DNA of 64,000 bases. It comes from Candidatus Raymondbacteria bacterium RIFOXYA2_FULL_49_16. GTDB taxonomy: Bacteria > Fibrobacterota > OXYB2-FULL-49-7 > XYB2-FULL-49-35. A model generated the notes under the pieces. That model saw only the letters and a list, made by a program, of their open reading frames with translations, searched no databases and had not been told where the DNA came from. The DNA is taken from NCBI GenBank assembly GCA_001789205.1, contig MFYT01000023.1, forward strand, positions 83,003-147,002, written 5' to 3'. A program made the translations under genes and the position numbers. This document shows positions 14,102 to 56,789 of the stretch, piece after piece; positions within the stretch are counted from its first letter, which is position 1, and each line of letters opens with the position of its first letter.

Positions 14102-16666
14102 TCAGGACTCAACCGTATACCACACGGTAATCCCCCGTTTTTCTCTATTGATCAGGTTCCTTTTTATGAGATCGTGAACGGCCTTTTTTGCCGTTAAATA
14201 CGATATTCCCAATTCCTTTTGAACGTCCCTAATGGTGAACTTCTTTGATTGCATCTTCCTGTGTATCTCATCAGCGTAATCCACCCCCTGCGGTCTGGTA
14301 AGGTTGTATTTGCCTTTGTAGGCATTGATGGTGGCTTTAGAAACGCCGAAATACCGCGCCAGCGACTCGTTGCTCCGTCCAATAAACTCCATGGCGCCTA
14401 TAAAAGCATCTTTGCTTTTATAGTCCTTTTTACGGTCAGTTGCCGTCTCATCTTTCACTTGGTCGCGGGGCCTGTCTGAAAATTGCGGGTCAGACGGTCC
14501 AAAAGCCTGTACCTGCGGATTCGGGAGTATGCGCTTGAGATATTGGGGAAAGTTCTGCACCGATATCGAAGACGCTGAGGACGGTACGATGGTCCTGCTG
14601 AGCACATTGTACAGTTCGCGGATATTTCCGGGCCAGTGGTACTGCCCAAGAAAGGGGATCACTTCGTTTTCCATGACCGGGATTGGAAGGTTGTTATTCA
14701 CGCATATTTTTTTAATAAGATAGTCAGCAACGACATATATGTCCTCTTTCCGTTCCCTTAATGGGGGCAGGTTGATCTCCGCTACCTTGAGCCTGTACAG
14801 CAGATCTGACCGGAACAGCCCCTTCATGACCATTTCCTCTAAGTCCGCGTTCGTGGCCGCGATAAGCCGGACATCCGCGGTGATGACCTGGTTGCCGCCC
14901 ACCCTCTCGAGCTCCTTGGTCTGGATGAACCGCAGGAGTTTTGCCTGTACCCGCATGTTCAGATTGCCGATCTCGTCGAGGAACACTGTGCCTCTTTCCG
15001 CCTGCTCGAACTTGCCGGCCTTGCGCTGATCCGCGCCGGTAAAAGCGCCCTTTTCGTGGCCGAATAACTCGCTTTCAATAAGGGATTCGGGCAGGGTTGC
15101 GCAATCAATGTGCACAAACGGCCCCTGCTTCCTGTCACTTTCATTGTGCAGGGCGTGCGCCGCAAGGTCCTTGCCCGTGCCGGTCTCGCCGGTAATGAGC
15201 ACGGTCAGGTCAGTTGGGCCCAGGGAACGCACCTGTTCGGCAATGGCCTTTGCTGCGGCGCTTTTTCCGGCCATGCCGTGGAACAAACCTTCGGACCCGG
15301 CTAAAGACGCTTGCAGCCGGCTTATCTCTTTTTCATAATCATTGGCCTTCAATTCAAGCTTATGGAGCGCAGTGATGTTCCGGAGGCCGAACAACCGCAC
15401 CGCTTCTTCTTGCGCGCCAAGAAACAGGTGCGATGTGGGCCGTATTTCGCATTCGTAGAATTCGTCCGGATGGTTTTTAAGACGGACAAGGAACTTGGTC
15501 TCTGGAAGGGGTCTGCCATGGAGCGCGTTCGGCCTGACGTGGATTTTAATATCGGATATCTCGACAGGCTGTTCGGACATGAATCCCAACAAGGGAAGCT
15601 CACTCCCTCTTTCCAGGGGTGTGGGGTCGGCAAAGGAAAGGACCTCTTTACCATCAATGGAAAAACGCACGACAACTCTTGTCTTTTCAACGCAAAACAG
15701 CGCCCCTTTTGCCGCAGGCGCCATCACCGCCACAGTGTCGATGTTCCGCCTGATGCGCGTGTTCTTTGACGTATTTCCCACAAGATATCCCCGCTCTTCA
15801 GGCGCGGTAATGAAATCCGCGGTCCCGGCCATGATGAGGCGGATGTTGTTGACGCTCGGTCTGAAGCATACCCGCACATCGTGGCTATTGAAATCAAATC
15901 GCCTGTTCAGCAGGGCGTACGCCCGGGAGGCGCGCAGTTCCGTCAGAGTGACGCGGTCTTTTCCGGCAATCCGCCAGGTGCTGTCAGGATTTGTGTACGC
16001 GAACGGAGCTTTTGACGGCATGAATTCCGCTGGATCAAGGGCTTGCCAACCCTTGTCCATATCCAGCGCGGATTCCAGGGCCATGCGTTCAAGCGCTTTC
16101 CGATTTCCCTCGATTTTCGCATATGAATTTTCATCGAGGATGTCCCTGATGTTCGCCCCAAGCACGCGCCCGCCGTTCAGGACCGCCCCGATACGATTAT
16201 AAAACTTTAAGGTGTATTCGACGATATTACCCTTTTCGTCAACGAACGCGAAAAGTTCATTGAAATATTCCCTGAACTCCGATTCCGCTCCGCTTCTGTT
16301 GAACATGATGCTATACACTCGCACTTCCAGGTCCCTGTGCACTTCTTCGACTATAACGCGCACGCCTTCGGCCACAGCGGCCATTTCATATCCAACACCC
16401 TCCAGTATTTCTTTTATTCGGGAATGGTTGGTCATTATCCTTTGAGTGGATCTTCCGTCAGACCCGTGTCCGTTCATGCGCACGAAGAGATCCTCCATTT
16501 GCTTGCCCGCGATATCTTTTTCTGAAAATCCAGTACGTTCCTCAAATTCATCCGATGCATAGATTATTTTGCCGGTATTGTCTGTCGCGACAATCCCAAT
16601 GGCCCGCATTGCTTTAGCCATTTTCAGATAGGGAGATAATATGGATGGGATTAACTTCTTTTGCAT
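14102..16666 (-). CDS. Sigma-54-dependent transcription activator with PAS and beta-sandwich sensor regions
   Basis: The 854-residue protein has a PAS-like domain at about 18-65, a second PAS-like segment at about 130-185, a beta-rich region at about 228-378, an AAA+ domain at about 463-700, and an unusual C-terminus. The AAA+ domain has Walker A 'GETGTGKD' (493-500), the sigma-54 contact loop 'GAFTGA' (540-545) and Walker B 'VFLDEIGN'. Instead of a Fis-type helix-turn-helix, the end has one HTH ('[17 protein letters not shown]') followed by a winged-helix segment. The beta-rich region, ending '[11 protein letters not shown]', recalls laminin-G/DUF1080-type sandwiches and may sense sugar. There is no receiver domain. 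It faces a sigma-54 promoter, and two further such promoters lie nearby, so it probably controls the secreted enzyme genes. Confidence 0.9.
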
Positions 16667-16681
16667 ATATACTTATATTAT

Positions 16682-16807
16682 GTTATTAATATAATATTGT
16701 ATTGATAATTTATCAATTTAAAATTATTCTTAACCGATTAATTATTTTAAGCATAGCATACTATAAAACTATTAGTTATCAATAATTAAGCCGACGAATA
16801 ATCAAAA
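16682..16807 (+). promoter_or_regulatory. Upstream regulatory module A of the esterase gene
   Basis: This AT-rich block can be aligned end to end with 19072-19196, at nearly the same length to the -24 element (about 128 against 127 bp). It contains a perfect 17-bp odd palindrome at 16701-16717 and the palindromic TTAACCGATTAA at 16730-16741, centred about 74 bp upstream of the -24 GG. That is a typical distance for sigma-54 activator sites. Confidence 0.6.
16730..16741. promoter_or_regulatory. Candidate activator-binding palindrome (TTAACCGATTAA)
   Basis: The 12-bp site has the form TTAA-N-CG-N-TTAA. Related copies occur at 19124-19135 and 30133-30144, each upstream of a secreted-enzyme gene. 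The likely binder is either the neighbouring sigma-54 activator or the AraC-type regulator. This is inferred from position and recurrence. Confidence 0.45.
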
Positions 16808-16823
16808 TGGAATTATAATTGCG
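16808..16823 (+). promoter_or_regulatory. Sigma-54 (-24/-12) promoter of the secreted hydrolase gene
   Basis: TGGAATTATAATTGCG has the invariant GG-N10-GC arrangement (GG 16809-16810, GC 16821-16822), and TTGC stands at the right place for the -12 box. Transcription would start near 16834, leaving a short leader with a strong GGGGGAGG ribosome-binding site before the ATG at 16872. Confidence 0.75.
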
Positions 16824-16871
16824 TTAATAACTGAAATAGCGTCATATTTTTTAAAATGCGGGGGAGGTCTT

Positions 16872-18995
16872 ATGGGAAAATTTCCAGTCATAATCTTACT
16901 TCTAAATTTATGGTTCACGGCTTTCAGCGCAACACCAACAAATATTACGGGCTTTTTCCGTTCGGGCCAGGTTTTTCTTACCTGGGACGAAGTAACTGGC
17001 GGAGAAAAATATTGTATTTACCGCACCACCGCTTTCATAACGCCCGCGGGACTTGTGGATGGCAATAAAGTGTATGAAGTAATACAGGGATCATCGGGCA
17101 ATAAGGTGTTGAAAAAATATTTTGATTCTACCAGTAAAACAGATCTGGTCCCGCGCTGTATTGTCACGCGGAATGTCATTAACCCCATTGATCCTGCTAC
17201 GTCAGGAACCGCGACGCCAGTCCCTGAGGGCACAGGCATGATAGTGCTTACCACTCATAGTACGGGAACATACTATTACGCGGTTACCGCAGTTGTTGGT
17301 GGTACGGAGGAAAAAACCATTAACGGAAATATATCCGGCCCTATTTTTGAGACAGTCCAGGAACCTGCACCTGTTTTATACTGGCAGTCCAGCACCATGA
17401 ATGCCCGGTATTATCTCCAGTATCTTGATGTGGATTCGTGTAATCCCACTCTGAACAACATGTATGCGTGGCCTTACTGGATTGGCGTGAATCCCACCTA
17501 TAACAGCGAAACCAAACATGGCGATCTGTATCTGGCGGTTGACGGCCATCCCGGCGGTATCGGGGGCGCCAATAATGGCGGAGCGCTTTATTCGTACATT
17601 TCGGTCAATAGCGCTGATGTAAGTACCTGGTGGTTTGGCTATAGTTCGACTTTTAAATACGACACGAGCCACATCGAGTTTTCAAGTAACGACTCTATCG
17701 TGACGTCAGGTCCTATTGTAAACTATACCCAGGCGCGGATCATGAATTTCCTTAAGTGGATGATACAGACGGAACCCTATTATTCTTCACGAATAGACAC
17801 TAATCAAATATGGGTGCGGGGTGGTTCCATGGGAGGAATGGGCGCCATAAATTTCTGCCGTACGTATCCTGGCTTTTTTTGCCGCGGCGTGGCAAAAGTG
17901 GCGCCGACGGATTTTTTTGAAGCAGGCGTTTGGCAATATATCGGAGAAGGCGAACTGATCTGGGGCGCACGTGATAATGATGCCATGACCGTGGAGTTTC
18001 GGGGATGGCGCAGCGAATGGGCGCAGGAGTATTTTGGAGGCATGACTGTTCATGAATGGCTCAATGCCGAGGATATTTACGCCAATAACCAGGATGTGGA
18101 CTATCCCTTTTTATTCTCGGTCCATGGCGGGGCCGATGGTGCCGTTAACTATCCTGTACAGGGCCCAGGGTTGTACCTTGCCTTGAATGGGGCAAAACAT
18201 GGCTTTTGCGGCGGAGTGGCAGGCGCGGGCGGTCATAGTACGGGAGCTGCAGGATATTATCCGTATTGCGAGTATATGCAGCGATATTTGAAGAAGAGCT
18301 CTTCGTATCTGGCTATATCCAATGCAAGCGGCAATGCCGCACTGCCATTGCCTGATGTATGCGAAGACCAGATTTATAATTTAAACCAGCAGTTTATCTG
18401 GAGTTCCGCCGAATATAAAGTCGGCAATTATCAGAACCAGATTGATGAGCTCAACCGGTACGAGATCGTGATTGCCAGCACTGCTGGCGCTACTGTGGCG
18501 GACATTACACCCCGCAGACTGCAGAATTTCCGGATAATACCCGGTAATGAATATATTGTGAAAAAGACCGCCGTGAATGATGTTGATGCGGTAAGCCAGA
18601 TCGATACCATTACGGCTGATGAGTACGGGTTGGTGACTTTTACCGGGTTTGAGGTCGATTCCGGCGGGCCAAATACCGGTGGCTGCCGTTTTGTCATGGT
18701 CCCTGTTGAACCGATTTCTGATGTAACAGCCCAATTGTTGAAAAACGATGGGACGCTTGTTACGGTTTCCCCGAATCCATTCAACCCAGCGACCACAATA
18801 ACAATTACGAACGGTGAACAACGAGTCACGAATTTTGGTGTATATACGAGTAACGGAAAACTGGTCGCTGCTTTGAAGACTTCCGGTCATAAATCAATCG
18901 TATGGGACGCTTCCGGTCAACCCAGCGGGGTCTATGTGATAAAAGCAACCATCGGAAACAGGACTGTGTCCAAAAAAGCCATATTGATGAGGTGA
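16872..18995 (+). CDS. Secreted alpha/beta-hydrolase (esterase-like) with FnIII-like and C-terminal sorting domains
   Basis: The 707-residue protein begins with a signal peptide ending 'FSA'. An FnIII-like N-terminal domain follows ('GFFRSGQVFLTWDEV', 'YCIYRTT'), then an alpha/beta-hydrolase domain with nucleophile elbow 'RGGSMGGMG' (Ser319) and a late His-containing 'GAKHGFCGG'. The C-terminus ('VTVSPNPFNPATTITI', 'GQPSGVYVIKA') is the FlgD-like/T9SS type A sorting-type domain. The ribosome-binding site GGGGGAGG is strong. A paralogue of the same architecture is at 25525-27708. Neighbouring beta-helix and rhamnogalacturonan-lyase genes suggest an esterase acting on decorated pectin; the exact substrate cannot be read from sequence. 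It is transcribed alone from a sigma-54 promoter. Confidence 0.85.
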   Translation: MGKFPVIILLLNLWFTAFSATPTNITGFFRSGQVFLTWDEVTGGEKYCIYRTTAFITPAGLVDGNKVYEVIQGSSGNKVLKKYFDSTSKTDLVPRCIVTRNVINPIDPATSGTATPVPEGTGMIVLTTHSTGTYYYAVTAVVGGTEEKTINGNISGPIFETVQEPAPVLYWQSSTMNARYYLQYLDVDSCNPTLNNMYAWPYWIGVNPTYNSETKHGDLYLAVDGHPGGIGGANNGGALYSYISVNSADVSTWWFGYSSTFKYDTSHIEFSSNDSIVTSGPIVNYTQARIMNFLKWMIQTEPYYSSRIDTNQIWVRGGSMGGMGAINFCRTYPGFFCRGVAKVAPTDFFEAGVWQYIGEGELIWGARDNDAMTVEFRGWRSEWAQEYFGGMTVHEWLNAEDIYANNQDVDYPFLFSVHGGADGAVNYPVQGPGLYLALNGAKHGFCGGVAGAGGHSTGAAGYYPYCEYMQRYLKKSSSYLAISNASGNAALPLPDVCEDQIYNLNQQFIWSSAEYKVGNYQNQIDELNRYEIVIASTAGATVADITPRRLQNFRIIPGNEYIVKKTAVNDVDAVSQIDTITADEYGLVTFTGFEVDSGGPNTGGCRFVMVPVEPISDVTAQLLKNDGTLVTVSPNPFNPATTITITNGEQRVTNFGVYTSNGKLVAALKTSGHKSIVWDASGQPSGVYVIKATIGNRTVSKKAILMR

Positions 18996-19071
18996 TTCGC
19001 ACGCACCCGCATAAGGGGCCGTTAATCAAGATATAGGCTGTTTTCAGGTAGAATGACAGTGATTGATACTT

Positions 19072-19196
19072 TGTTAGTAATATAATAATAATGTTTTGAT
19101 ATATTATGAATTTACAATTATTTTTAAACGGTTAATTATTTAAGGTAATTTCTTGTAAAACTAAAAGATATATATCATTAAGCACGAACAATCAGG
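19072..19196 (+). promoter_or_regulatory. Upstream regulatory module B of the beta-helix operon
   Basis: This module is alignable along its whole length with module A (16682-16807). Shared blocks include TGTTA.TAATATAATA, AATTATT.TTAA.CG.TTAATTATTT, TAAAACTA and ATTAAGC.CGA. The flanking coding sequences are unrelated, so conservation is confined to the intergenic DNA. The TTAA-N-CG-N-TTAA palindrome lies about 70 bp upstream of the -24 GG. Confidence 0.6.
19124..19135. promoter_or_regulatory. Candidate activator-binding palindrome (TTAAACGGTTAA)
   Basis: This is the second copy of the TTAA-N-CG-N-TTAA motif, in the same relative position to a sigma-54 promoter as the 16730 copy. Confidence 0.45.
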
Positions 19197-19212
19197 TGGA
19201 ATAGTAATTGCT
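19197..19212 (+). promoter_or_regulatory. Sigma-54 (-24/-12) promoter of the beta-helix operon
   Basis: TGGAATAGTAATTGCT has GG at 19198-19199 and GC at 19210-19211 with exactly ten bases between, and TTGC in the -12 box. It is nearly identical to the 16808 promoter. The predicted start, near 19223, also argues that the gene begins at 19271 and not at the in-frame ATG at 19208. Confidence 0.75.
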
Positions 19213-19270
19213 AAATGCTTGTGAAACTCAGTTATTTCCGCGTAAAAAAATAAAAAAGGGGGGGGCGTTT

Positions 19271-20809
19271 ATGAGAATTGATTCAATGTACGGGATTAAA
19301 ATACTAATACTTACATGTGTTTTTTCAGCGCAAATCGGAGCATATACCACATTTGACGGTAAAACCGTTCCCCCTCTTCCAGCTCCGGTAAACCCAACTA
19401 TGTGCAGCACAACTATTCAGCTGTATATGGCCTTGCGGACCCAGGGGCCCAATAAAACCATTGTTTTAAAAGACGGCGCATACGACATTGCAACCATTGA
19501 ACCCTTGCGGATAGATTCCATTGGCGTCACCATCCGCGGCCAATCAGGCGACCCCACCAAGGTTGTCATTAGCGGGAAGGGATTTGAAAACTGCGACTAT
19601 CCTGACGAGGAAATGTTCCAGCTAGCCGCGGACAGCATCGTCTTCGCGAACGTTACCATTGCCGAATCGCGGTGCCACGGCATAAAAATACTGGTTGACG
19701 GCGTCGACAATGTCCGGCTGCATAATGTCCGTTTTTTCAATATAGGCGAACGGTGCATCAAGGGAGGGCTGGGCGGATACGGGTGGAATATCGGCTACTG
19801 CCATTTTGAAAATACCAAGGTTCCGGTAAATGACACGTGCCGCAAAGACCATATCGATGGAAATTATATCGCTGGTATGGACATCATGAACTCTGACTCA
19901 TGGGTTGTCCACGACTGCCTTTTCCGCAACATACGGGGGGCTACAGGCGGCGGCAGAGGCGCTATTTTTTTCTGGGGAGGCACTGATGGGCGGCAGAATA
20001 AAAACGTGACAGTCGAACGTAATACGTTTTTTGGATGCGACCGGAGTATTTGCTTTGGAAACGCTTCGGGCGCGGTTGATGTTACGGGCGGCGCTATCCG
20101 CAACAACTTTATCGTGCGCGGGGCGGACAATGGCATTGAAATGGAGCATTCGTCTTCGGTAAAGATTTACAACAATACGCTGTACAGCACAAATCCAACA
20201 TTTACCATGGCAGTGCAGTTCAGCGCTAATGATACTGCTAACGAATTCAGGAATAATATTATTTTTGGAAATATTTCCGGAAGCGTACAGACCATGTCGA
20301 ATAACATCACAAAAAACACCGCTGGCGATGCGAACACAAACTGGTTTGTCAGCCGTTCCGACGCAAACCTGCATCTTACGGGCAATGCGACTCAGGCCAT
20401 TAACCAGGGCGCCAACGGCCTTGTGGCAGACGACTGGGACGGGCACGCAAGGGTTGACGCTACTTGCGATGTTGGCGCTGACGAGTACAACTCTGTGCTG
20501 GTCGAAAACCGGCCCGCTGAATCTGAAGAAACCCTGACGCTTTCCATTTTTCCTAATCCCTTCAACCCAGCCACAGCGGTCAAATTTTCCATTGCCGGCA
20601 TTACAAAAGAAGCTGTTCGCCTTGCGGTGTACGACCTGAAGGGTGGTCTGGTCAAGGTCCTGATGCATCGCGTGTCTGGCAAAGGGCCCTATACCGTGGC
20701 ATGGGACGGGACTGACGGGAAGGGTGCGCAGGTCAGCGGCGGCGTATATGTCTGCACATTGACCGCCGGAAGTATGGTCCTTGCCCGGAAGATGTTCCTA
20801 GTCAGATAA
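19271..20809 (+). CDS. Secreted right-handed beta-helix protein (pectate-lyase-like) with sorting domain
   Basis: The 512-residue protein starts at the ATG at 19271, after an AAGGGGGGGG ribosome-binding site; an in-frame ATG at 19208 lies upstream of the predicted transcription start. The signal peptide ends near 'IGAYT'. The body is a parallel beta-helix: 'TIVLKDGAYDI', 'VTIRGQSGDPTKVVISG' and then repeated '.V...NT.F..C' turns ('NVTVERNTFFGCD', 'VKIYNNTLYS'). This is the fold of pectate lyases and chondroitinase-B-like lyases, but no catalytic set can be assigned by eye. The C-terminus carries 'SIFPNPFNPATAV' and 'GGVYVCTL', the sorting-type domain. A paralogue is at 22411-23958. It is the first gene of a three-gene operon with 22-28 bp gaps. 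Confidence 0.85.
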   Translation: MRIDSMYGIKILILTCVFSAQIGAYTTFDGKTVPPLPAPVNPTMCSTTIQLYMALRTQGPNKTIVLKDGAYDIATIEPLRIDSIGVTIRGQSGDPTKVVISGKGFENCDYPDEEMFQLAADSIVFANVTIAESRCHGIKILVDGVDNVRLHNVRFFNIGERCIKGGLGGYGWNIGYCHFENTKVPVNDTCRKDHIDGNYIAGMDIMNSDSWVVHDCLFRNIRGATGGGRGAIFFWGGTDGRQNKNVTVERNTFFGCDRSICFGNASGAVDVTGGAIRNNFIVRGADNGIEMEHSSSVKIYNNTLYSTNPTFTMAVQFSANDTANEFRNNIIFGNISGSVQTMSNNITKNTAGDANTNWFVSRSDANLHLTGNATQAINQGANGLVADDWDGHARVDATCDVGADEYNSVLVENRPAESEETLTLSIFPNPFNPATAVKFSIAGITKEAVRLAVYDLKGGLVKVLMHRVSGKGPYTVAWDGTDGKGAQVSGGVYVCTLTAGSMVLARKMFLVR

Positions 20810-20831
20810 GGTTGAACCCGGAGGGGGGGGC

Positions 20832-22382
20832 GTGAAACGTATTGTAGTGGCTCTCATAGCTGGATTGTTTTTAATACCGGGTCCTGTTCAGCCAGACTCT
20901 TCCTTGCTTCTTTTGCCCTCGGATCTTGAGTATCTGGGCGCATTTCGCTTGCCATCTGAAAGTGACGGAAATACCAGCTGGAATTCGGGTGGGAAGGGAA
21001 TGACCTATTATCCCGCAGGAGATGTCAGCGGCCCGGACGATGGCTATCCTGGTTCTATTTTTGGCATCGGTCATTCTGTGAAGGGCGGTGTGTCTGAATT
21101 CAATATTCCTGTTCCTGTAATTTCACCTAACAAAATCCTGGGTGATCTGAATACAGCGCAGACCCTTCAGGGGTTTTACGATATCACCGAAGGCCGCCAT
21201 GGCACCGACAACTACGTACTCAAGGGTATCGAATATCTTCCTGCCCAGGGAGAAATGACAGAGGATAAGATCCACTGGTGCATGGAAGAATATTATATAC
21301 CGCCATTTGATAAGCCTTCGCACAGCTGGGCCTCATTGGATCTGTCGAATCCCCGGACCCCAGGGCTCTGGCACATTGGCCAACCAGGGGAGTTCCATAT
21401 GGGAACAACAAGCCGTTATATATTCGAGATCCCAAAGGCTTGGTCTGATGTGAATACGCCGGGTAAACTTTTAGTTACCGGCAGGTTCCGCTCCCAGGCG
21501 GGCAGTTTCGGTCCAACACTATATACCTATGGTCCATGGAACAATGGTAATCCTCCTTCGGACAGCGCCTATCTGGATGCGATTGAAATGCTTCGATATC
21601 CGCAACCAGGCCAGATGTTTAACGGATGGTCGTCTGATACAACTTTTGGATTTCATAATGCGGATGATTGGGAGGATGGTGCATGGCTCACTGCTTCGGA
21701 CAAGGCAGCGGTGATCATCACAGGGACCAAGGCCCTTGGATCCATTTGCTATGGAACACCGGATGTAACAGTGGAGTGCGACATGTACTGCGGAGGCAAG
21801 GGGTATCAAGCGGATGATTATGCTGCCTGCATTCTATTCTACAATCCCGACGATCTCGCCGCCGTGGTTCACGGGGAAATGCAGAAAAACGAACCCCAAC
21901 CCTATACCTGGGTATTCATGGACTCGCTTATGTTTATGAGTGGATGCACCAGGAGCACCTTGGCCGGTACTGCCTATGACCGCGCACATAACCTGCTCTA
22001 TATTTCCGAAATTGGTGCTGATACCCTTCCCGGCACCTATGATACCAGGCCATTGATCCATGTATGGCGGGTGAGCAGTCCTGGTGTGGCTGCGGCGCCA
22101 GGAGCAACGATGCGGGTCAAAGATCTGAATGTCTCAACCTGGCCAAACCCGTTTAACAAGACCGCACATATCATGATCAGCAATCGGTCGGCGATACGTA
22201 TCAGCCGGGTCGGACTATTTTACACAAACGGCAAGCTGATGCACACGAAAAGGATTTTCGATTATCATGCGCCGGTCGTGGAAATCACGTTCGACGCGAC
22301 AAGTCAACCAGCAGGCGTCTATATTCTGAAGATAAACGCGGGTTCCCAAACAGTGACGAGGCGTATCACGCTTTTAAAATGA
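20832..22382 (+). CDS. Secreted protein of unknown function with C-terminal sorting domain
   Basis: The 516-residue protein starts with GTG after GGAGGGGGGGG. A signal peptide is followed by 'LLLLPSDLEYLGAFRLP' and 'SIFGIGHSVKGGVSEFNIP'. The aromatic- and Gly-rich middle could be a beta-propeller, but no family or catalytic motif is recognised. The C-terminus has a divergent sorting-type domain ('STWPNPFNKTAHI', 'GVYILKI'). It is sandwiched between two paralogous beta-helix genes and shares their operon, so a role in binding or processing the same polysaccharide is likely. Confidence 0.8.
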   Translation: MKRIVVALIAGLFLIPGPVQPDSSLLLLPSDLEYLGAFRLPSESDGNTSWNSGGKGMTYYPAGDVSGPDDGYPGSIFGIGHSVKGGVSEFNIPVPVISPNKILGDLNTAQTLQGFYDITEGRHGTDNYVLKGIEYLPAQGEMTEDKIHWCMEEYYIPPFDKPSHSWASLDLSNPRTPGLWHIGQPGEFHMGTTSRYIFEIPKAWSDVNTPGKLLVTGRFRSQAGSFGPTLYTYGPWNNGNPPSDSAYLDAIEMLRYPQPGQMFNGWSSDTTFGFHNADDWEDGAWLTASDKAAVIITGTKALGSICYGTPDVTVECDMYCGGKGYQADDYAACILFYNPDDLAAVVHGEMQKNEPQPYTWVFMDSLMFMSGCTRSTLAGTAYDRAHNLLYISEIGADTLPGTYDTRPLIHVWRVSSPGVAAAPGATMRVKDLNVSTWPNPFNKTAHIMISNRSAIRISRVGLFYTNGKLMHTKRIFDYHAPVVEITFDATSQPAGVYILKINAGSQTVTRRITLLK

Positions 22383-22410
22383 GCGCCCACATTTTCGGGG
22401 AGGTATTCTT

Positions 22411-23958
22411 ATGAATCGCTTTATTTCTTTCGCGGTGATGAGCGCCGCAGTATTGTCTCACGCCTATGTTACCTACGACGGAAGGACTGTGCCGGACCTT
22501 CCTTTGCCATCAGATACGGTAAACGTGAGCACAAACCTCCAATTCCATATGGCCCTGATCGCCCTGACACCAGGCCAGACCATCCTTCTTGCTGATGGCG
22601 CCTATGATATGGCGAACTACGAGCCCTTAACACTGAACGACTCAAATGTCTGCATCCGCGGGGCGTCAAACGATCCAACCAAGGTCATTATCACCGGGCA
22701 TGGATTCTCAAATAATTACAATGTGGACGAGGAACTCTTTGTGTTGAATACGAGCCATGTCACCTTTGCGTATATCACCATATCCGAATCACGGTGCCAC
22801 GGAGTTAAGTTCCAAAGCGGCAATAACGACCGTACCATTTTCCATTGCGTTCGTTTCATAAATATAGGCGAACGCAAAATCAAAGGTCCGAGTTCGACAA
22901 ATGCGTTGGCATGCACTGTCAGATACTGCCATTTCGAGGACTTGGAACTGCCCGCCACAGACCGGTGCGTGGGCACCCCGTGCGAAGGCTTTGATGAAGG
23001 GGGTAATTACATCGCTGGTATGGACATCAGAAACGGCGACAGTTGGGTGATGGAGAACAATTGCTTTGTTAATATCCGCGGCGCAACAGGCCAGGGGCGG
23101 GGCGGCATTTTCCTCTGGAACTCTACCGTGAATATGATCGCGCAGGCGAACACCTTCATCAACTGCGATAAAAGCATCTGTTTCGGCAACCCGTCAGGCG
23201 TTTCGACATCGGTAGACGGTGGCTATATCAGGAACAACATGATTTATCCCGGCATTGCCATGGGCATAGAAATGTATGACTGTAATAATATCAAGGTTTT
23301 CAACAACACGACGTTCAGCTCGCTGAACACGAGTTCGGGTGCGCTATTTTATACCCGGAGCCAGAACTGCCAGATAAAGAACAACATATTTTATGGCGGT
23401 TTAAACCTGACGGGTAATTCACCGGATACGGCCAAAAACATAACAGTAACGAGGAGCAACAAGGCGGTTATTGGCCGTTGGTTCCAGGGCGATGTTTCCG
23501 CTGGAAACCTGCACCTGGTTTCGGACACATCCTCGGCTATAAACAACGGCGTCAATCTTTCGGACGTCACATTGGACTGGGACGGCCTTGCGCGCGATAG
23601 CCAGAACGATATTGGCGCCGACGAATATTCGAACAATCCGGTAGCCGTTGACGTTTCAGCGGCGATCAAAGGGGAGACCTATCTGAGCAATGCGCACCCC
23701 AACCCGTTCAATCCATCGACGGTCATACGTTATGGGATATCAAAGCGTGAAAGTTTCTGTCCGTTTTCTATCACGGTGCTGTCTGCGGATGGGAAAGAGG
23801 TCAGAACGCTTGTCGAAGGAATCATGATAGGCGGCAATTACGCGGTCAAATGGGACGGCGCGGACAACACCGGCAACCAGGTCGCAAGCGGCCGCTATAT
23901 CATTCGCCTGCAGGCTGGGAATAATATTAAAACGGTAATTGCGACTACTCTCAGATAA
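22411..23958 (+). CDS. Secreted right-handed beta-helix protein (pectate-lyase-like), paralogue
   Basis: The 515-residue protein has a signal peptide ('MNRFISFAVMSAAVLSHAY') and a parallel beta-helix body, and is closely parallel to the 19271-20809 product. Shared landmarks are 'VTYDGRTVPDLPLPS', 'ILLADGAYDM', 'SRCHGVKF', 'RFINIGERKIKG', 'DKSICFGNPSG' and the terminal 'GADEY'. The C-terminal sorting domain reads 'AHPNPFNPSTVIRY' ... 'ASGRYIIRL'. It is the third gene of the sigma-54-controlled operon, 28 bp after its neighbour. The pair probably arose by duplication and diverged towards related substrates. Confidence 0.85.
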   Translation: MNRFISFAVMSAAVLSHAYVTYDGRTVPDLPLPSDTVNVSTNLQFHMALIALTPGQTILLADGAYDMANYEPLTLNDSNVCIRGASNDPTKVIITGHGFSNNYNVDEELFVLNTSHVTFAYITISESRCHGVKFQSGNNDRTIFHCVRFINIGERKIKGPSSTNALACTVRYCHFEDLELPATDRCVGTPCEGFDEGGNYIAGMDIRNGDSWVMENNCFVNIRGATGQGRGGIFLWNSTVNMIAQANTFINCDKSICFGNPSGVSTSVDGGYIRNNMIYPGIAMGIEMYDCNNIKVFNNTTFSSLNTSSGALFYTRSQNCQIKNNIFYGGLNLTGNSPDTAKNITVTRSNKAVIGRWFQGDVSAGNLHLVSDTSSAINNGVNLSDVTLDWDGLARDSQNDIGADEYSNNPVAVDVSAAIKGETYLSNAHPNPFNPSTVIRYGISKRESFCPFSITVLSADGKEVRTLVEGIMIGGNYAVKWDGADNTGNQVASGRYIIRLQAGNNIKTVIATTLR

Positions 23959-24047
23959 TAGCAGTCTGGCAAATACCTGTTTCTCAATAAACGCCCAGTT
24001 CATTCTTGTTATAATATAATTAGATATTAACATAATAATGCTAATAT

Positions 24048-24064
24048 ATTGATATAATATCATT
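24048..24064. promoter_or_regulatory. Candidate operator: near-perfect ATTGATAT-A-ATATCATT palindrome
   Basis: This 17-bp odd palindrome has one mismatch between arms and is centred about 74 bp upstream of the -24 GG at 24130. It resembles the perfect 17-bp palindrome at 16701-16717 (ATTGATAA-T-TTATCAAT). It may be an activator or regulator site, but AT-rich DNA makes chance palindromes more likely. Confidence 0.35.
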
Positions 24065-24128
24065 AAAGCATATTTTATTTATCAGAGTATAGTAGGTTAG
24101 CTATTGATAATAAATTAGATAAGAAGAA

Positions 24129-24144
24129 AGGCGCCAGATTTGCT
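24129..24144 (+). promoter_or_regulatory. Sigma-54 (-24/-12) promoter upstream of the small ORF and CBM9-like gene
   Basis: AGGCGCCAGATTTGCT has GG 24130-24131 and GC 24142-24143 with ten bases between. Its GGCGCC...TTTGCT is close to the textbook TGGCACG-N4-TTGC. The transcript would start near 24155 and cover the 53-codon ORF and the CBM9-like gene. Confidence 0.65.
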
Positions 24145-24175: not shown

Positions 24176-24337
24176 ATGAAAAATGCCAGTAATTCATTAC
24201 TTAAAGAGTACCTGAGGTTGTGTGATCAGGATTTCAACAGAATGGACAAGGCCGCCTTTATCAGGGAGCAAAAGGTGCTGGAAAAATTAATTGAAAAAAT
24301 CCAACGCCGTGAAAAAGAGGAGTACGGAAAACCATAA
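24176..24337 (+). CDS. Small charged helical protein (53 aa), putative
   Basis: ATG at 24176 to TAA at 24337 encodes 53 residues. It is rich in Lys, Glu, Arg and Leu with heptad-like spacing ('EQKVLEKLIEKIQRR') and probably alpha-helical. No signal peptide is visible. It is the first open frame after a good sigma-54 promoter and lies 47 bp before the CBM9-like gene. There is no strong Shine-Dalgarno sequence. It could be a leader peptide, a small regulator or a chance ORF. Confidence 0.45.
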   Translation: MKNASNSLLKEYLRLCDQDFNRMDKAAFIREQKVLEKLIEKIQRREKEEYGKP

Positions 24338-24384
24338 CGCAGTCATCGTAAGCATGTTACCCAAACACAAAAGGAGTGTATTGT

Positions 24385-25452
24385 ATGAAAAAAATCATCA
24401 CCTTTACATTGATCGCATGCGCGGCCATGCTGGCTTTTGGCCAAAAAGACACTTTGAAAGTATACAAGATCGACGCCACGGTCGCAGATGGCGTTCCTGT
24501 GATGGACGGCGACCTTTCCGACTGGGACCAGGGGTATAATGCCGGTGGGTTTGAAAATGACAACAACCTATACTATGTGACCACCAGCGACATGTCCGGA
24601 TGGACAGGTATAACAACCGATTTCCAGGCAAGCGTATATCTGGCGCATGACGGCACCTATTTATACATTGGCTGGGAAACAACCCTGGACGACGACAATA
24701 TGTCCGGTACGTATACCAATAGCCTGTGCGATAGAATCCGGATCAGCTTTGGCGCAAAGGACGACCGGGTCTATGTCCTTAACCATACACTGCTTCAGGA
24801 TTCCAACCCGCAGTTTCGTGCTTATAATTACGACACCCAGGTCGGCATCAGCGTAGGAAGCGGCGCTACGTTGCCGAAATATGAAATCCGGTTTTTAATA
24901 GACGAAATCCGTTTCTATTTCCCCACTACGAATCCGCCATTCGCGCTTTTAAGCATTGGTACGGAGGATGCTGATGACGCTGGTAGTAATTATCTTGGGC
25001 TTGGCGCGAACTATTCGGGAGACAAACATGATGACGTGACCAATCCATGGGACAACAGCGCGAACTATCCCATTGTGCAGTTTCTTGATGAATACGCTCC
25101 GGGAGTTAGCGTTGAATCTGCCGCAAATGGATCCGCTGAAGGCATGTTGATTTCGGCCTGTCCCAATCCATTCAACCCTTCAACAAAAATAGCCGTCTGT
25201 TTCTCCAATAGCGGCGCAGGGCGGGTGAACTCATTGTCCCGCATTCCGGGTGCACAGAAGGTGGAACTCGTCATTTATGACATGAACGGGAAAAATGTCT
25301 TTCACCAGGAAACCCGGACTTCGCAGCTTGCGGCCGGCATAACCTGGGACGGCAGGGACTTACGCGGCACTAGCGTTTCATCCGGAGTGTATGTCGTGTC
25401 CGTGTCGGCTGGCGCAAAGACGCTGCAAAAGAAAATAATATTGAACAGATAA
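24385..25452 (+). CDS. Secreted CBM9-like carbohydrate-binding protein with sorting domain
   Basis: The 355-residue protein starts at ATG 24385, 8 bp after AAGGAG; an in-frame GTG at 24376 overlaps that site. The signal peptide ends 'MLAFGQ'. The domain at about 20-230 has the family 9 carbohydrate-binding pattern: 'IDATVADGVPVMDGDLSDW', then 'ASVYLAHDGTYLYIGWE' and 'DRIRISFGAKDDRVYVL'. The C-terminus is the sorting-type domain ('ISACPNPFNPSTKIAV', 'VSSGVYVVSV'). The protein probably binds polysaccharide at the cell surface or in the medium and supports the neighbouring lyases. A convergent terminator follows. Confidence 0.82.
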   Translation: MKKIITFTLIACAAMLAFGQKDTLKVYKIDATVADGVPVMDGDLSDWDQGYNAGGFENDNNLYYVTTSDMSGWTGITTDFQASVYLAHDGTYLYIGWETTLDDDNMSGTYTNSLCDRIRISFGAKDDRVYVLNHTLLQDSNPQFRAYNYDTQVGISVGSGATLPKYEIRFLIDEIRFYFPTTNPPFALLSIGTEDADDAGSNYLGLGANYSGDKHDDVTNPWDNSANYPIVQFLDEYAPGVSVESAANGSAEGMLISACPNPFNPSTKIAVCFSNSGAGRVNSLSRIPGAQKVELVIYDMNGKNVFHQETRTSQLAAGITWDGRDLRGTSVSSGVYVVSVSAGAKTLQKKIILNR

Positions 25453-25524: not shown

Positions 25525-27708
25525 TTATCTTGCCAGTATCATCTTCTTATTCAGTTTTTTTCCATCGACAATCACCATTGCAATATATACACCCGAGGCC
25601 ACCTGAGCGCCAGCGTTGTTTAGGCCATTCCATTCTACATTCGCATTGCTGAACACCCGTGTTTTTATTGGTATTGTCCTTACTGTTTGGCCGTTCATAT
25701 TGCAGATATATAAACAACCTGAGGTTATTACGCTGAATTTCGTTCCAATATTGATTTTTATCATAGTAGTGGGATTAAACGGATTGGGTGCTACACTTAT
25801 GATATCCTCTCGACCTAATGGCTGAACATCGCCCTTTGAAATGGTCTGAGGTTCTCCGCATGGATAATTTTGACCCCGTGAATTTAGCGTGACCTTTGCA
25901 ATTGCGCCGGAAAGACGTATGGGCACATCCGGGACAAGCAGAAGATCCAGGCTGTCTGCCGTAATGGTTCCGGTTGTTTCAACGGATTCCGAAGCATCCA
26001 TTATTTCATACGTAAAAACATCATCTTCGCATACTTCAAGCGTCTGAAGATTGCGCGGTGTTATGTCCACGGTATAGGTCTCCTGGCAATTGTTGGAACA
26101 GTTACACACATTAATGATGGGAATACTCCATGACGTTGATGTCTCCTCGATCCTCTTGCCGCTTAGGACAGAATGTTCCTGTGTTCCCCATTCAACGTTG
26201 AGCATGTATGTACGGCAGGTAGGACAGGCATGATCGGCGGCGTTATACGCGCATCCCTCCCTGGCAGGTACATTGGAAAACCCGGGCCGGCTTTCGTCCC
26301 AGCGCATATAATTTATCATTCTGCTGCCATAACCCGAAGCATCGTTCCATGCGTGTCCACCCGGAGTTGCCGCATATCCATAGGAATGACGTGAATCCTT
26401 GAGATAATCTTCAAAAGGTTGCCCCTGTGAACTAAAGGGGATTGATTCGTCATCATAGGTATGCCATCCATTAATGAGGCCAAAACTTTTATAGGTATTA
26501 AGCTTCATAAAATGGACTACATCACGGGCATCGTACACGTTCATACCGGTGAATTGTGTGACCCAATCGAGTCCGGCATAATCGGGATCGTTGAAAGGCA
26601 GGAATTTTACCGGATTTGCATTGCTTACAGCTCCGTAATTGCTGAAAATCGACGCTCCCCACATAAAAATTCCCTGATCAGTGTACACGCTGTCATAATT
26701 CGTTAATCCATGGCATGCCCACATGGAGGTAACGAATGAGGGATAGGCCATAAGCAGTCCAAATCCGCCTGATGCACCCATGGAGTTGCCGTTAAAGTAA
26801 TATTTTGGTTGTGTGATATGATATGCCCGCCTGGCCCATAAAGCGACCTGGATATGGCGGTATTGTATATAATTCGTAATAGTATCTTGCATGCTTTGAG
26901 ATGCGGTGCCGGATTCACCGTCCCAATCCAGGGATTGGTGATATCCGAAATACCAGGTGGGCTGGCCATTGCCGGAAAGATCTCCGCAGCCGTAATTAGA
27001 ATAGTCTGATGAAGCAAGCACGGTTGTGCTGATGCCGTCATAATGCGCACTGGGCATATTACCACCGTTTGAAAACGCAGACCTTGTTATGACAAATGGA
27101 AAAGCATAACCGAGATAATTTTCCCGGTATAGCTCATAGTCGAGCCACATGGTATAATAATCACGCATACTGCCCACATAATATCTGACAGCGCCGATAG
27201 GTTGCTTTTGCTCGTTAATGGGACCGCAGCTGTTGCCGGATGTTATGGCGGCTTCCTCCACGCTGCCTGAAGAAACCGTGGTTATCGCATAATAATAGTC
27301 CGCTTGCGCGGCTTCCTTCACGGTCCATACAAAAAGGCCTGTGGTGGTGCCAAGCTGCGTTCCCCTACCGCTGGACACGGGCTGAATGATACAACGACTG
27401 ATGACCGCGTTCTGATAATCAGTGTCGGTTTTTTTATCCATCAGACTGCTGTCTGTTTTATGCATTTCCCTGAAATAGCTTGAACCTTCCTTGATTTCAG
27501 CTATGCATGTTGCCGATAAAAGATTACCACTGGTGATTTGCGCCGTGTTCCGGTAAATCCGGTACGTTTCCCCGGATTGACCATTGTCCTCCTCCCAGGT
27601 CAGGAATGTCTGGCCTTCCCTGAAAAAACCGGCAAGTCCTGTTGGCTGCGCGGCATTGGCAGCGCACAGCGCCGCAAAGACGCATATCGCGATATTCTTT
27701 ATTTTCAT
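25525..27708 (-). CDS. Secreted alpha/beta-hydrolase (esterase-like), paralogue, with sorting domain
   Basis: The 727-residue protein starts at 27708 behind AAAGGAGG. The signal peptide ends 'CAANAA'. The N-terminal FnIII-like domain ('GLAGFFREGQTFLTWEE', 'YRIYRNTAQIT') and the hydrolase elbow 'FNGNSMGASGGF' (Ser309) match the 16872-18995 protein. A Cys cluster follows ('HACPTCRTYML', 'NVCNCSNNCQ'), which is unusual and could form disulfides or bind metal. The C-terminus has 'ISVAPNPFNPTTMIKI' and 'VASGVYIAMV'. It lies 25 bp after the lyase-like gene and ends at a terminator. It is probably an esterase acting on the same decorated polysaccharide. Confidence 0.83.
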   Translation of the reverse strand: MKIKNIAICVFAALCAANAAQPTGLAGFFREGQTFLTWEEDNGQSGETYRIYRNTAQITSGNLLSATCIAEIKEGSSYFREMHKTDSSLMDKKTDTDYQNAVISRCIIQPVSSGRGTQLGTTTGLFVWTVKEAAQADYYYAITTVSSGSVEEAAITSGNSCGPINEQKQPIGAVRYYVGSMRDYYTMWLDYELYRENYLGYAFPFVITRSAFSNGGNMPSAHYDGISTTVLASSDYSNYGCGDLSGNGQPTWYFGYHQSLDWDGESGTASQSMQDTITNYIQYRHIQVALWARRAYHITQPKYYFNGNSMGASGGFGLLMAYPSFVTSMWACHGLTNYDSVYTDQGIFMWGASIFSNYGAVSNANPVKFLPFNDPDYAGLDWVTQFTGMNVYDARDVVHFMKLNTYKSFGLINGWHTYDDESIPFSSQGQPFEDYLKDSRHSYGYAATPGGHAWNDASGYGSRMINYMRWDESRPGFSNVPAREGCAYNAADHACPTCRTYMLNVEWGTQEHSVLSGKRIEETSTSWSIPIINVCNCSNNCQETYTVDITPRNLQTLEVCEDDVFTYEIMDASESVETTGTITADSLDLLLVPDVPIRLSGAIAKVTLNSRGQNYPCGEPQTISKGDVQPLGREDIISVAPNPFNPTTMIKINIGTKFSVITSGCLYICNMNGQTVRTIPIKTRVFSNANVEWNGLNNAGAQVASGVYIAMVIVDGKKLNKKMILAR

Positions 27709-27733
27709 ACCAACCTCCTTTAGAATCGTTTTG

Positions 27734-30067
27734 TCATTTTAATAACGTTATTCGAAGCGTATATTCTTGGTTTCCGGTTTTCACTTTTATCAGATACGTT
27801 CCTGATGGAAATCCATGTGCGTCCCATATACTTTTATTGCGATTTAAAGCGTCCGTTATTGCATGGACGCGTTTTCCATGGATATCGTATATGTTTATTT
27901 GCACTGGTCTTTTGGCGTTTTTTGCCGAAAAGACGATCACGGGGTTGAATGGGTTTGGATAAGCGCATATGTCAAAATCTTGCGCTGGCGGTTGAGGATA
28001 CTGCTTACCGTCAACAGCGGCGGACAAGCTCCACGTACAGGGGTCTGCCAGAGTGAGCCAATCGCGAGAATCAAAATAAGCGCATTCAGGGTTAGACCAT
28101 CCGCGCGGACCCGCAAACCCTCCAACCGTGTCCAAATAATCGTACACAAATTGATACGCCTCATCGCTTTTCGGCATGCCGGCGCGTTTGGCAATGGCTA
28201 GCGCATATATAAGATATCCTATCCATTGTGTCTCCATTTTATTGTCCCGACCCATCTCTACGGCAACATAGCTGTCTGTCTGAGTGGTCATTATACGGTA
28301 TGCATCAGCCCAATTGTCCGGGATCCTGTAACCTTTTTGACAACTGGTACTGCATTGGAAATCAATGTAATGTGAAAAATAATTCACCGCGTCCCATTTG
28401 TTGAAATCCGGGTGGTTGACGCATACACCCACAGGGAGTCGTAGCATGAAATCCCGCCATTGGGACGCTCCGGCAAAGCCCAGACGCGCAAGCTGGTCAG
28501 CCACATCGAGGATGAAATAGTTGTTCTCGTACATGCCGCCCCTATTTTCCACTAAATAAAGGCCGAATTGATTATTCATATCAACACGCGCAATATGACA
28601 AAGCGCGGAATCAATGGTTCTATCAATGCAGTCCTTGAAATACGCTTTGTCCGAATGATTGTCCGGTAACGTCACCCACGAATCCAATATTTCCCGCAAG
28701 TGCATGGCGTTTTCCCGGTTTCGCCCGCACACTATTCCATTGCTGTTCCTTCCTTCGTACCAGAGGCTATAGGCAGCCCAATAAAGCTGTTCTTCCATGT
28801 AGTAATAATCGCCGGTGATAATATAAGGGACAAAAGGAAAAGAGGGCGGATATCCCCAGCTGACAGTGTATGGATGGCGCATATCTCCGTACGGACAATC
28901 GAAGAAGGCGTACCCCACGTCCCAGCCATGGTCGCACAGCCAAGGGAATTTTCCTGGAAAATCCCGCAATTGCAGTATCCGGCCGTTTTCCTTGTTACGG
29001 CCGTGCACGGGAAAGCTTGCCGCTTGTTCTCCTGCGCAGAGCATGACCTCTTCATTCCGCCAATCCATTGAATAGAGATAATCGGTTGTCCAGCTTGGGA
29101 AGATTTTCCTGTCATCGCGTCCTGCGCACTCGATCAGGTTCCTGAAAATGACGCCATTTTCAAGAATGTCATTTCCATCAGCCGTCCCATTTAAAAATGA
29201 TGCGTATCTGCCGGCAATTTTATTTTCTTCTATGCCTTTCGTGTAATCATATGGAGGCAGGTATCCAGTGGATATCAAATAGGTAACATTAAACTTGATC
29301 TGCGACCGGGATGGCTTGTTTCCAAGCCAGAACACTCTGCGCCACCGCGAATCACGCCAGTGACGCACTGAATCCCGGCTGAATGCATTTATTGGTGAAG
29401 CATTGCCAAGAAAAAGGTCAACATCGTAATAGGCTGCGCCACGGTTGCAATGCCATACATTTTCCGCAACAACAGATACCCGTATGCCGTTCCAGCCTGG
29501 ATAACAGCGGACCTGGTATTGGACATTGATGTTTTCGCTGGGGTTTAGGTTCGTGTCGTTCAGTAAAAACTCCGTACATAAACCGCCGGAAAGCCACGTT
29601 TCGAGCGAAGAGGCGTTTTGGACTATCTGCCGCGCTGAAATTGATGTAAGGCTATCTATGGCCGACAAGCCGCTATCACGATAAAATTTAAACTCAAGGC
29701 GTGCGTCAAAATCATGGAAAAGGAGCGAATCCTTATTCCACTCATCATTGCCCTGCATCGGGCTGCCATCAGATAATTCTATGGTTTGCTCGCTATTTGC
29801 AGTGAGTAAAGGTATGATCAAAGAGATGATCCCATACCGCACCGAACCATCGTCGTACCGGTTTTTAATATCCATCTGGGCCGGAACATCCAGCCCATTA
29901 ATCCGCGCTATAATTGAAGACTGCACATGGCCTTTGATAAAAGGATGGCCAAAGGTGACCGGATAATGGGGTGTGGTAACGCCCGCGAGTTCCTTGATGG
30001 AGATTTCAGTAACTTTGGCATAAATTGGAAAAAAGGCTAGAATGAAAAATAATAAAGAAAGTCTCAT
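27734..30067 (-). CDS. PL26-like exo-rhamnogalacturonan lyase with sorting domain
   Basis: The 777-residue protein is read from ATG 30067, which opens into a signal peptide ('MRLSLLFFILAFFPIYAKV'); a further 18 upstream in-frame codons would bury that signal. The N-terminal segment 'HYPVTFGHPFIKGHV' ... 'MDIKNRYDDGSVRYGIISL' is the RIFT-barrel start typical of the PcRGLX/PL26 exo-rhamnogalacturonan lyase family. The middle is rich in Trp, Tyr and His, as expected for an (alpha/alpha) toroid lyase. The C-terminus is the sorting-type domain ('CAYPNPFNPVIVF', 'FPSGTYLIKV'). It lies between the AraC-type regulator and the second hydrolase in one minus-strand operon. Family membership is by motif recognition; the substrate is inferred. 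Confidence 0.72.
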   Translation of the reverse strand: MRLSLLFFILAFFPIYAKVTEISIKELAGVTTPHYPVTFGHPFIKGHVQSSIIARINGLDVPAQMDIKNRYDDGSVRYGIISLIIPLLTANSEQTIELSDGSPMQGNDEWNKDSLLFHDFDARLEFKFYRDSGLSAIDSLTSISARQIVQNASSLETWLSGGLCTEFLLNDTNLNPSENINVQYQVRCYPGWNGIRVSVVAENVWHCNRGAAYYDVDLFLGNASPINAFSRDSVRHWRDSRWRRVFWLGNKPSRSQIKFNVTYLISTGYLPPYDYTKGIEENKIAGRYASFLNGTADGNDILENGVIFRNLIECAGRDDRKIFPSWTTDYLYSMDWRNEEVMLCAGEQAASFPVHGRNKENGRILQLRDFPGKFPWLCDHGWDVGYAFFDCPYGDMRHPYTVSWGYPPSFPFVPYIITGDYYYMEEQLYWAAYSLWYEGRNSNGIVCGRNRENAMHLREILDSWVTLPDNHSDKAYFKDCIDRTIDSALCHIARVDMNNQFGLYLVENRGGMYENNYFILDVADQLARLGFAGASQWRDFMLRLPVGVCVNHPDFNKWDAVNYFSHYIDFQCSTSCQKGYRIPDNWADAYRIMTTQTDSYVAVEMGRDNKMETQWIGYLIYALAIAKRAGMPKSDEAYQFVYDYLDTVGGFAGPRGWSNPECAYFDSRDWLTLADPCTWSLSAAVDGKQYPQPPAQDFDICAYPNPFNPVIVFSAKNAKRPVQINIYDIHGKRVHAITDALNRNKSIWDAHGFPSGTYLIKVKTGNQEYTLRITLLK

Positions 30068-30132
30068 GATAGCCCCCGGTATATTAAATAGCCCCCTGTC
30101 CTTTTCCTTTTTTCCTGACAATTGCCTGATCG

Positions 30133-30144
30133 TTAATCGTTTAA
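30133..30144. promoter_or_regulatory. Candidate operator palindrome (TTAATCGTTTAA)
   Basis: This is the third copy of the TTAA-N-CG-N-TTAA motif, 66 bp upstream of the lyase-like gene start on the minus strand, in the 194-bp gap after the AraC-type gene. No clear -24/-12 element was found here, so binding by the AraC-type regulator with another sigma factor is possible. Confidence 0.35.
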
Positions 30145-30261
30145 TAATATAATGGCGTATGTATCAACGAAATAGCCTTTTACGGCAAAAAACGCTATCC
30201 TAATGGAAAAAGCGCTGATGTTAAGGGAAATTCCGTACTTTTTTAGAAAAGAAGGCTTTTT

Positions 30262-46104: not shown

Positions 46105-46713
46105 ATGGGAGCTCGTTTCTGTTTTTTCTGCGTCTTTTTCTTTTCCGTTTTTACCATTATTCATGCGGCTGATAGCGTCACTGTTTCTGATCCTGGCTTT
46201 GACATGGCAAAGCTCAAGGCTGAAATTGAGGCAGGCAATGTCACGGTAGCAAAACAGCCAGGCCAGTACAAACCGAGCGGTTCAAAAGAGGCCATGCTTA
46301 TTTCGCTCAAGATGCTGGTCTACGTGAGCCTTATTGCCGCGGTCCTCTATGTTGTTCTGCGCATTGTAAAAAAGAACAGCGCAGGAGGCGCGTATAAGAA
46401 GGGAAAGGGAAACAGCAGAAACATTGAAATTGTGGAGCATGCCTTTATACGGGAGAATAAATCCGTGGGCCTGGTCAAGGTACTCGACCGTGTGTTGGTG
46501 CTTGGGGTCACGGAAAAAGGGATCAATCTTCTTACTGAATTCAACGATGCTGAATCAGTGTCCCGGATAATGCATAACAACCAGGAAACCGCGTCAAAGG
46601 TCGGGGCCCAGTTTGCGGCGTCGGTCAATGGTTTTCTGGAAAAATTTTCGAAAAAGGGCGCTGTAAAAACAGCTGAAGAGTTCCAGCTTGGGCTGCAGGA
46701 ATCGAAGGTTTAA
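46105..46713 (+). CDS. fliO: Flagellar biosynthesis protein FliO
   Basis: The 202-residue protein is read from ATG 46105 (signal peptide 'MGARFCFFCVFFFSVFTIIHA'), after AAAAAGGGA; an upstream in-frame ATG at 46060 lacks such a site. One transmembrane helix ('LVYVSLIAAVLYVVLRIVKK') is followed by the FliO cytoplasmic domain ('IEIVEHAFIRENKSVGLVKVLDRVLVLGVTEKGINLL', seen in parts). It stabilises FliP in the flagellar type III export gate. It is the first gene of the flagellar operon, and its end overlaps the fliP leader. Confidence 0.85.
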   Translation: MGARFCFFCVFFFSVFTIIHAADSVTVSDPGFDMAKLKAEIEAGNVTVAKQPGQYKPSGSKEAMLISLKMLVYVSLIAAVLYVVLRIVKKNSAGGAYKKGKGNSRNIEIVEHAFIRENKSVGLVKVLDRVLVLGVTEKGINLLTEFNDAESVSRIMHNNQETASKVGAQFAASVNGFLEKFSKKGAVKTAEEFQLGLQESKV

Positions 46714-46717
46714 CCGT

Positions 46718-47470: not shown

Positions 47471-47483
47471 ACGGAGGTGCTGT

Positions 47484-47753
47484 GTGACTACCGCAATGGT
47501 GATTGATGTGGGCCGTGACGCTCTATTGACAACGCTCATGGTATCGGGCCCCATGCTTCTTGCAGGCCTTGTTATCGGCCTTATCGTGGGCATTTTTCAG
47601 GCAGTGACCCAGATTCATGAAATGACCCTGACATTTATCCCGAAAATCGTGGCAGTGGGCCTGGTCATGCTTTTTACCCTGCCCTGGATGCTGAACAAGT
47701 TCATGGATTTCACCTATAGCCTGATACAAATGATTCCCATTGTGGCCCACTAA
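47484..47753 (+). CDS. fliQ: Flagellar export gate protein FliQ
   Basis: The 89-residue protein with two transmembrane helices has the FliQ pattern 'VIDVGRDALLTTLMVSGPML' and 'AVTQIHEMTLTFIPKIVAVG', and ends with a hydrophobic helix. It belongs to the export gate ring. Its stop overlaps the fliR start (TAATG), so they are coupled. Confidence 0.95.
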   Translation: MTTAMVIDVGRDALLTTLMVSGPMLLAGLVIGLIVGIFQAVTQIHEMTLTFIPKIVAVGLVMLFTLPWMLNKFMDFTYSLIQMIPIVAH

Positions 47754-48538: not shown

Positions 48539-48551
48539 AGGACCACGCATC

Positions 48552-49610: not shown

Positions 49611-49621
49611 CCTTACATATC

Positions 49622-51364: not shown

Positions 51365-51420
51365 TCCGGCATCGGGAGTGCCGGCCTGGATTGGTTTAGA
51401 AAAATATTGGGAGAACTTCT

Positions 51421-55647: not shown

Positions 55648-55649
55648 TC

Positions 55650-55952: not shown

Positions 55953-55990
55953 ACCGGACGATAGCGCACCTGAGCGGAACATAAAAATAT

Positions 55991-56770: not shown

Positions 56771-56789
56771 CTTTTTGCGGGAGCATAGC

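Follow-up and report, generated by a model that had tools for sequence, protein, structure and literature searches.

A repeated sigma-54 activator and promoter module predicted to control clusters of secreted proteins with T9SS-type sorting tails in a Candidatus Raymondbacteria genome

How secreted polysaccharide-degrading proteins are controlled in bacteria of this kind is largely an open question. Polysaccharide utilisation loci of Bacteroidota are governed by hybrid two-component systems, ECF sigma factors or AraC-type regulators. For Fibrobacter succinogenes, cellulase regulation was named as an unanswered question in the genome paper, and a sigma54-like regulator near a GH9 cellulase (Fisuc_0397) is annotated as a two-component response regulator (PMC3079729). 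The locus considered here lies in a 64-kb stretch of a Candidatus Raymondbacteria genome (the window), where a first-pass annotation placed three sigma-54 promoters, P1 to P3, ahead of secreted-enzyme genes. Does sigma-54, acting with a dedicated activator, switch on these genes? Our analysis indicates that the window very probably holds one copy of a repeated module in which a receiver-less activator and sigma-54 promoters switch on a cluster of secreted proteins. The locus first described is real, but it is one case of a system found at no fewer than eight loci in this genome and at many in G001, a comparison genome that belongs to another family of this order.

All three sites are present where they had been reported, on the plus strand, and the 16-mers of P1 (TGGAATTATAATTGCG), P2 (TGGAATAGTAATTGCT) and P3 (AGGCGCCAGATTTGCT) each contain GG-N10-GC with TTGC. 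The motif alone does not exceed chance: TGGCACNNNNNTTGCW with up to two mismatches matches the window 25 times, against 36.9 matches expected from shuffled sequence. The evidence must therefore be contextual, drawn from position and recurrence. This lack of enrichment over the whole window, together with the AT-rich gaps and a TATAAT inside P1, would fit an alternative in which the GG-N10-GC sites arose by chance, a housekeeping or ECF sigma factor transcribes the genes and the activator acts elsewhere.

The components that a sigma-54 system needs bear on this alternative. An rpoN gene, on whose presence the original proposal depended, has one match in the 5.43-Mb genome of 112 contigs; its product is intact, with a glutamine-rich N-terminal region and an RpoN-box-like ARRTISKYRE. 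G001 carries rpoN as well. The activator gene previously noted beside P1 encodes an AAA+ domain (PF00158, E 3.3e-68) with an intact GAFTGA motif, and no receiver domain of the two-component NtrC type was found in it, in the L032 activator or in the others examined. Seven paralogues elsewhere in the genome can be aligned to the window activator well beyond the AAA+ domain, two of them partially (L037, where a contig end cuts the gene, and L038, the most divergent); about 20 ordinary sigma-54 activators match it mainly within that domain. Near-identical activator C-termini at contig ends (L029, L030), and the missing C-terminus of the L037 activator, raise the possibility that assembly has merged a ninth copy into another.

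All eight activator genes are divergent to secreted-protein operons, and every intervening gap contains a sigma-54-like site oriented toward the targets; the one at L034, GAGCATGCTTTTTGCA, lacks the G at -25. The first large target gene encodes a T9SS-type tail in seven of the eight loci. The exception is L036, whose first promoter precedes a gene without such a tail: genes for 595-aa and 171-aa proteins come first, followed by a T9SS operon with a promoter of its own.

We scored these gaps with a promoter matrix that is our own approximation of the published sigma-54 consensus and was not trained. Across 13 activator/target gaps (eight here and five in G001) the summed best score was 146, compared with 36.4±10.4 in 1000 dinucleotide shuffles (maximum 75.6); changing the spacer by one or two bases reduced it to 21-33, and the opposite strand gave 52. 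When all dinucleotide pairs were ranked at spacings of 3-20, GG-N10-GC came first of 4608, occurring in 11 of the 13 gaps where 3.0 were expected. An out-of-sample set was obtained with A7, a profile of an insert in the activators that is described below: it recovered 13 further G001 stretches, seven of which have an activator and an intact divergent gap. These seven gaps summed to 88.6 against 24.4±7.6 for shuffled sequence (maximum 51.1), with the matrix fixed beforehand and the gaps defined after their neighbourhoods had been seen, so that the choice was not blind. The best sites of two members, L120 and L121, are imperfect; in the first set of 13, the gap adjacent to the L076 activator of G001 has no site.

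A genome-wide search for such promoters before genes with the same sorting domain had been suggested at first pass. Our matrix scan covered sampled stretches comprising 401 gene calls, in which a site scoring at least 10 preceded 8/11 T9SS-tailed genes near activators, 1/29 other T9SS-tailed genes and 8/124 other genes. Of the 17 sites listed, all contain TTGC and 16 retain GG, counts that are not independent evidence because the matrix partly determined which sites were chosen. Enrichment that is specific to spacing and strand, in the 13 gaps and again in the seven untouched ones, and the contrast with other T9SS genes make coincidental sites a very remote prospect. Sigma-54 control of the cluster, as first proposed, is well supported at the sequence level by rpoN, the GAFTGA motif, the spacing-specific sites and their conservation, across two families, in the paralogous loci and the second genome. 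Coordinates of the predicted elements are given in Table 1.

Table 1. Predicted features of the sigma-54-associated cluster, in window coordinates
Feature	Position	Strand	Remarks
Sigma-54 activator, 854 aa	14102..16666	-	PAS; sensor ~128-446; AAA+ with GAFTGA; HTH + winged-helix-like C-terminus
Candidate operator-like block before P1	16722..16747	+	Probable activator binding site; two genome matches only
P1, sigma-54 site	16808..16823	+	Predicted start ~16834
Secreted protein, 707 aa, T9SS-type tail	16872..18995	+	TIGR04183 above cut-off; PF18962; hydrolase-like GGSMGG motif (by eye)
Candidate operator-like block before P2	19116..19141	+	
P2, sigma-54 site	19197..19212	+	Predicted start ~19223
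Secreted right-handed beta-helix protein, FlgD_ig/T9SS-type tail	19271..20809	+	PF13229, PF13860; start moved from 19208
Secreted protein, 516 aa, T9SS-type tail	20832..22382	+	TIGR04183 above cut-off; operon of 19271
Secreted protein, 515 aa	22411..23958	+	PF13860; choice_anch_Q below cut-off; operon of 19271
P3, sigma-54 site	24129..24144	+	Predicted start ~24155; probably under a different activator
53-aa protein, predicted helical hairpin	24176..24337	+	Directly behind P3; six-copy family
Secreted protein, ~358 aa, T9SS-type tail	24376..25452	+	TIGR04183 above cut-off; resembles first large gene of L033

The gene order behind the promoters differs in part from the initial reading, in which each site preceded a secreted-enzyme gene or operon. 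This holds for P1 and P2; behind P3, a 53-aa open reading frame that had been overlooked comes first and the gene for the secreted 358-aa protein second. The start of the second secreted-protein gene was also revised, as the TTG at 19208 falls inside the P2 promoter and the ATG at 19271 is the most likely start. TIGR04183 identifies the sorting tails of the 707-, 516- and 358-aa proteins, and those of the beta-helix protein (533 aa) and the 515-aa protein, which are homologous by eye, match only FlgD_ig; export of the tailed proteins would be by a T9SS. The description of the locus as pectin-type is not established: searches of Pfam, NCBIfam and the PDB assigned none of these secreted proteins to a pectinase class and gave only generic beta-helix and sorting-tail matches. 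The secreted proteins probably degrade polysaccharide.

Other genes of this kind occur nearby and elsewhere. At 25525-32253 the window contains a cluster of two T9SS-tailed genes on the minus strand; an AraC-type regulator of 663 aa is encoded upstream of them, and no sigma-54 site there scores 9 or higher. In some sigma-54 clusters (L032:12577-14784, L034:11541-13898) the first large gene encodes a T9SS-tailed protein with leucine-rich repeats. In L093, on contig C9 of this genome, a good sigma-54-like site (TGGTATATATATTGCT) precedes a T9SS gene (open reading frame at 15086) whose cluster has no activator of the family nearby. Further along the window, at 46688-57000, a run of flagellar export genes recognised by eye (FliQ, FliR, FlhB, FlhA, FlhF-like, FliA-like) suggests a motile cell.

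We then asked which activator serves which promoter. When up to three mismatches are allowed, a 26-bp block, AATTATTYTTAAMCGRTTAATTATTT, is found at just two places in the genome, exactly before P1 and P2; a reversed control has no match. The block lies about 75 bp upstream of the -24 element, a position typical of enhancer-binding proteins, and we accordingly regard it as a candidate operator. Pairwise comparison of the 115 bp upstream of each site gave z scores of 25 for the L075 pair of G001, 12.8 for P1 and P2, 9.2 for the L036 pair and 5.9 for L034/L036a. All remaining pairs reached at most 3.5, and similarity is confined to the same cluster or to close paralogues. An operator common to different activators was looked for across the upstream regions and not found.

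P3 stands apart. The first-pass annotation implied, without stating it outright, that the adjacent activator controls all three promoters, and P3 does lie less than 7.5 kb from that gene, with a compatible -24/-12 element. Joint government of P1, P2 and P3 by this single local activator is nevertheless improbable given the region upstream of P3, which lacks the AATTATTYTTAAMCGRTTAATTATTT block and is no more similar to those of P1 and P2 (z 1.6 and 1.0) than shuffled DNA would be. These differences suggest that P3 probably answers to an activator other than the one encoded at 14102-16666.

The 53-aa protein encoded behind P3 belongs to a family associated with these promoters. Related proteins of 53-70 aa are encoded close behind the site and before a T9SS gene at six loci (P3 of the window, L032, L033, L034, L036 and L037), and a profile built from the six retrieves exactly those six in the genome, so that here the family occurs only behind such promoters. 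Pfam yielded no match above cut-off. Structure prediction from the single sequence gave a helical hairpin (pLDDT 81.5), and our guess is that the protein could be a feedback partner of the activator. In G001, other small open reading frames separate the sigma-54 site from the T9SS gene: L120:6679-7032 looks STAS-like and L118:7797-8066 PilZ-like, both judged by eye.

What the activators sense is suggested by a region spanning residues 128-446, which is common to all eight and shared more distantly with about 10 AraC-type regulators and three SpoIIE-type proteins. Several of these AraC and SpoIIE genes, too, are neighbours of T9SS clusters; the SpoIIE-type phosphatases are at L039:14214-16373, L055 and L057, and the copies at L039 and L090 (L055) adjoin T9SS genes. 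Within or after the second PAS-like region, the activators have an insert of about 180 aa. Against Pfam the insert has no match above the curated cut-off; PF06439 appears weakly in 3/12 members (best E 0.092), with no other family, and PF06439 by itself matches nothing in the genome. The insert profile also picks up Ser/Thr kinases from other families of the phylum, and in these (L107, L109, L112) PF06439 passes its curated cut-off over the same residues. Through this transitive profile match, the insert is probably a distant ConA-like domain. Ser/Thr protein kinases from these other families (L107, L108, L109, L112) combine a related ConA-like domain with TPR or LRR repeats.

ConA-like domains are often carbohydrate binders. 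When the flanks of the insert were joined as a split-PAS test, the single match was marginal (PAS_9, E 0.1); the insert may interrupt the second PAS fold or follow it. A structure predicted from the single sensor sequence (319 aa) had a pLDDT of 31.6, and PDB searches with the sensor and insert profiles returned chance-level matches only. Among 168 genomes of the phylum, the present one alone matches the full sensor profile strongly; G001 matches it more weakly, and one further weak match is part of a kinase-like open reading frame; the insert profile alone has matches in 13 genomes of the phylum.

The sensor module may define a novel class of carbohydrate sensor acting inside the cell. Alternatively, the promoters could be true sigma-54 promoters whose activators respond to a PAS-type cue such as redox or energy, in which case the clusters would follow physiology and not substrate. 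PAS domains are indeed recognised in these proteins, and in the activators themselves the ConA-like assignment stays below cut-off; we consider such a cue unlikely, though a serious contender, given the kinship of the insert to PF06439 domains and its presence in regulators of the AraC and SpoIIE types that neighbour T9SS clusters. Returning to the carbohydrate-sensing reading, we tentatively speculate, at somewhat short of even confidence, that polysaccharide fragments are read by an interchangeable cytoplasmic lectin-like (ConA-type) sensor, situated in or behind a PAS fold and coupled to three outputs (sigma-54 activators, AraC-type and SpoIIE-type proteins), and that each secreted-protein cluster of this order has an activator, an operator and a sigma-54 promoter of its own, where hybrid two-component or ECF control is used elsewhere.

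We propose that RpoN-RNA polymerase would wait in a closed state at P1 and P2 while the divergently encoded activator senses an intracellular signal, probably a polysaccharide breakdown product bound in the ConA-like/PAS sensor region. At each promoter the activator would bind its own operator, about 95-100 bp ahead of the start site, and its GAFTGA AAA+ motor would open the promoter, leading to production of secreted proteins with T9SS-type sorting tails. P3 would be a similar promoter, probably under a different paralogue. With its own DNA-binding end and operator for each paralogue, every cluster could be addressed separately.

Receiver-less, PAS-containing sigma-54 enhancer-binding proteins form a general class with cytoplasmic PAS domains, an AAA+ domain with GAFTGA and a C-terminal DNA-binding domain. 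The activators described here share this layout and add the insert; most members end in an HTH and winged-helix-like region, not the usual Fis type, although L079 of G001 has a Fis-type HTH. Levan and cellobiose use in Bacillus and Clostridium is controlled by PRD-containing sigma-54 activators of the LevR/CelR type (PMC3162934, PMC6615313, PMC10864463). The present system resembles these in pairing sigma-54 with a dedicated activator for carbohydrate use. LevR and CelR, however, have PTS regulation domains, for which Pfam scans of the window and L032 activators found no match, and act mainly on PTS uptake and catabolic operons; here there are PAS domains and a ConA-like insert, secreted T9SS-tailed targets and one activator per cluster. 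Like Fisuc_0397, the activators are sigma54-like regulators near secreted enzymes, but Fisuc_0397 carries a response-regulator annotation and they lack a receiver domain. In the literature covered, from which subscription papers were mostly absent, we came across neither sigma-54 control of T9SS cargo nor this sensor, and could not find a description of an activator with a probable sugar-sensing domain in this arrangement.

As in Bacteroidota polysaccharide utilisation loci, the clusters appear to be of substrate type, each with its own adjacent regulator; unlike those loci, control here would pass through a sigma-54 promoter and an enhancer-binding protein. Because a sigma-54 promoter stays silent in the absence of its activator, the clusters could be kept tightly off until a cue arrives. 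A sigma-54 system organised cluster by cluster predicts which activator pairs with which cluster, and supplies start sites and operators for the control of secreted polysaccharide-degrading proteins in these bacteria.
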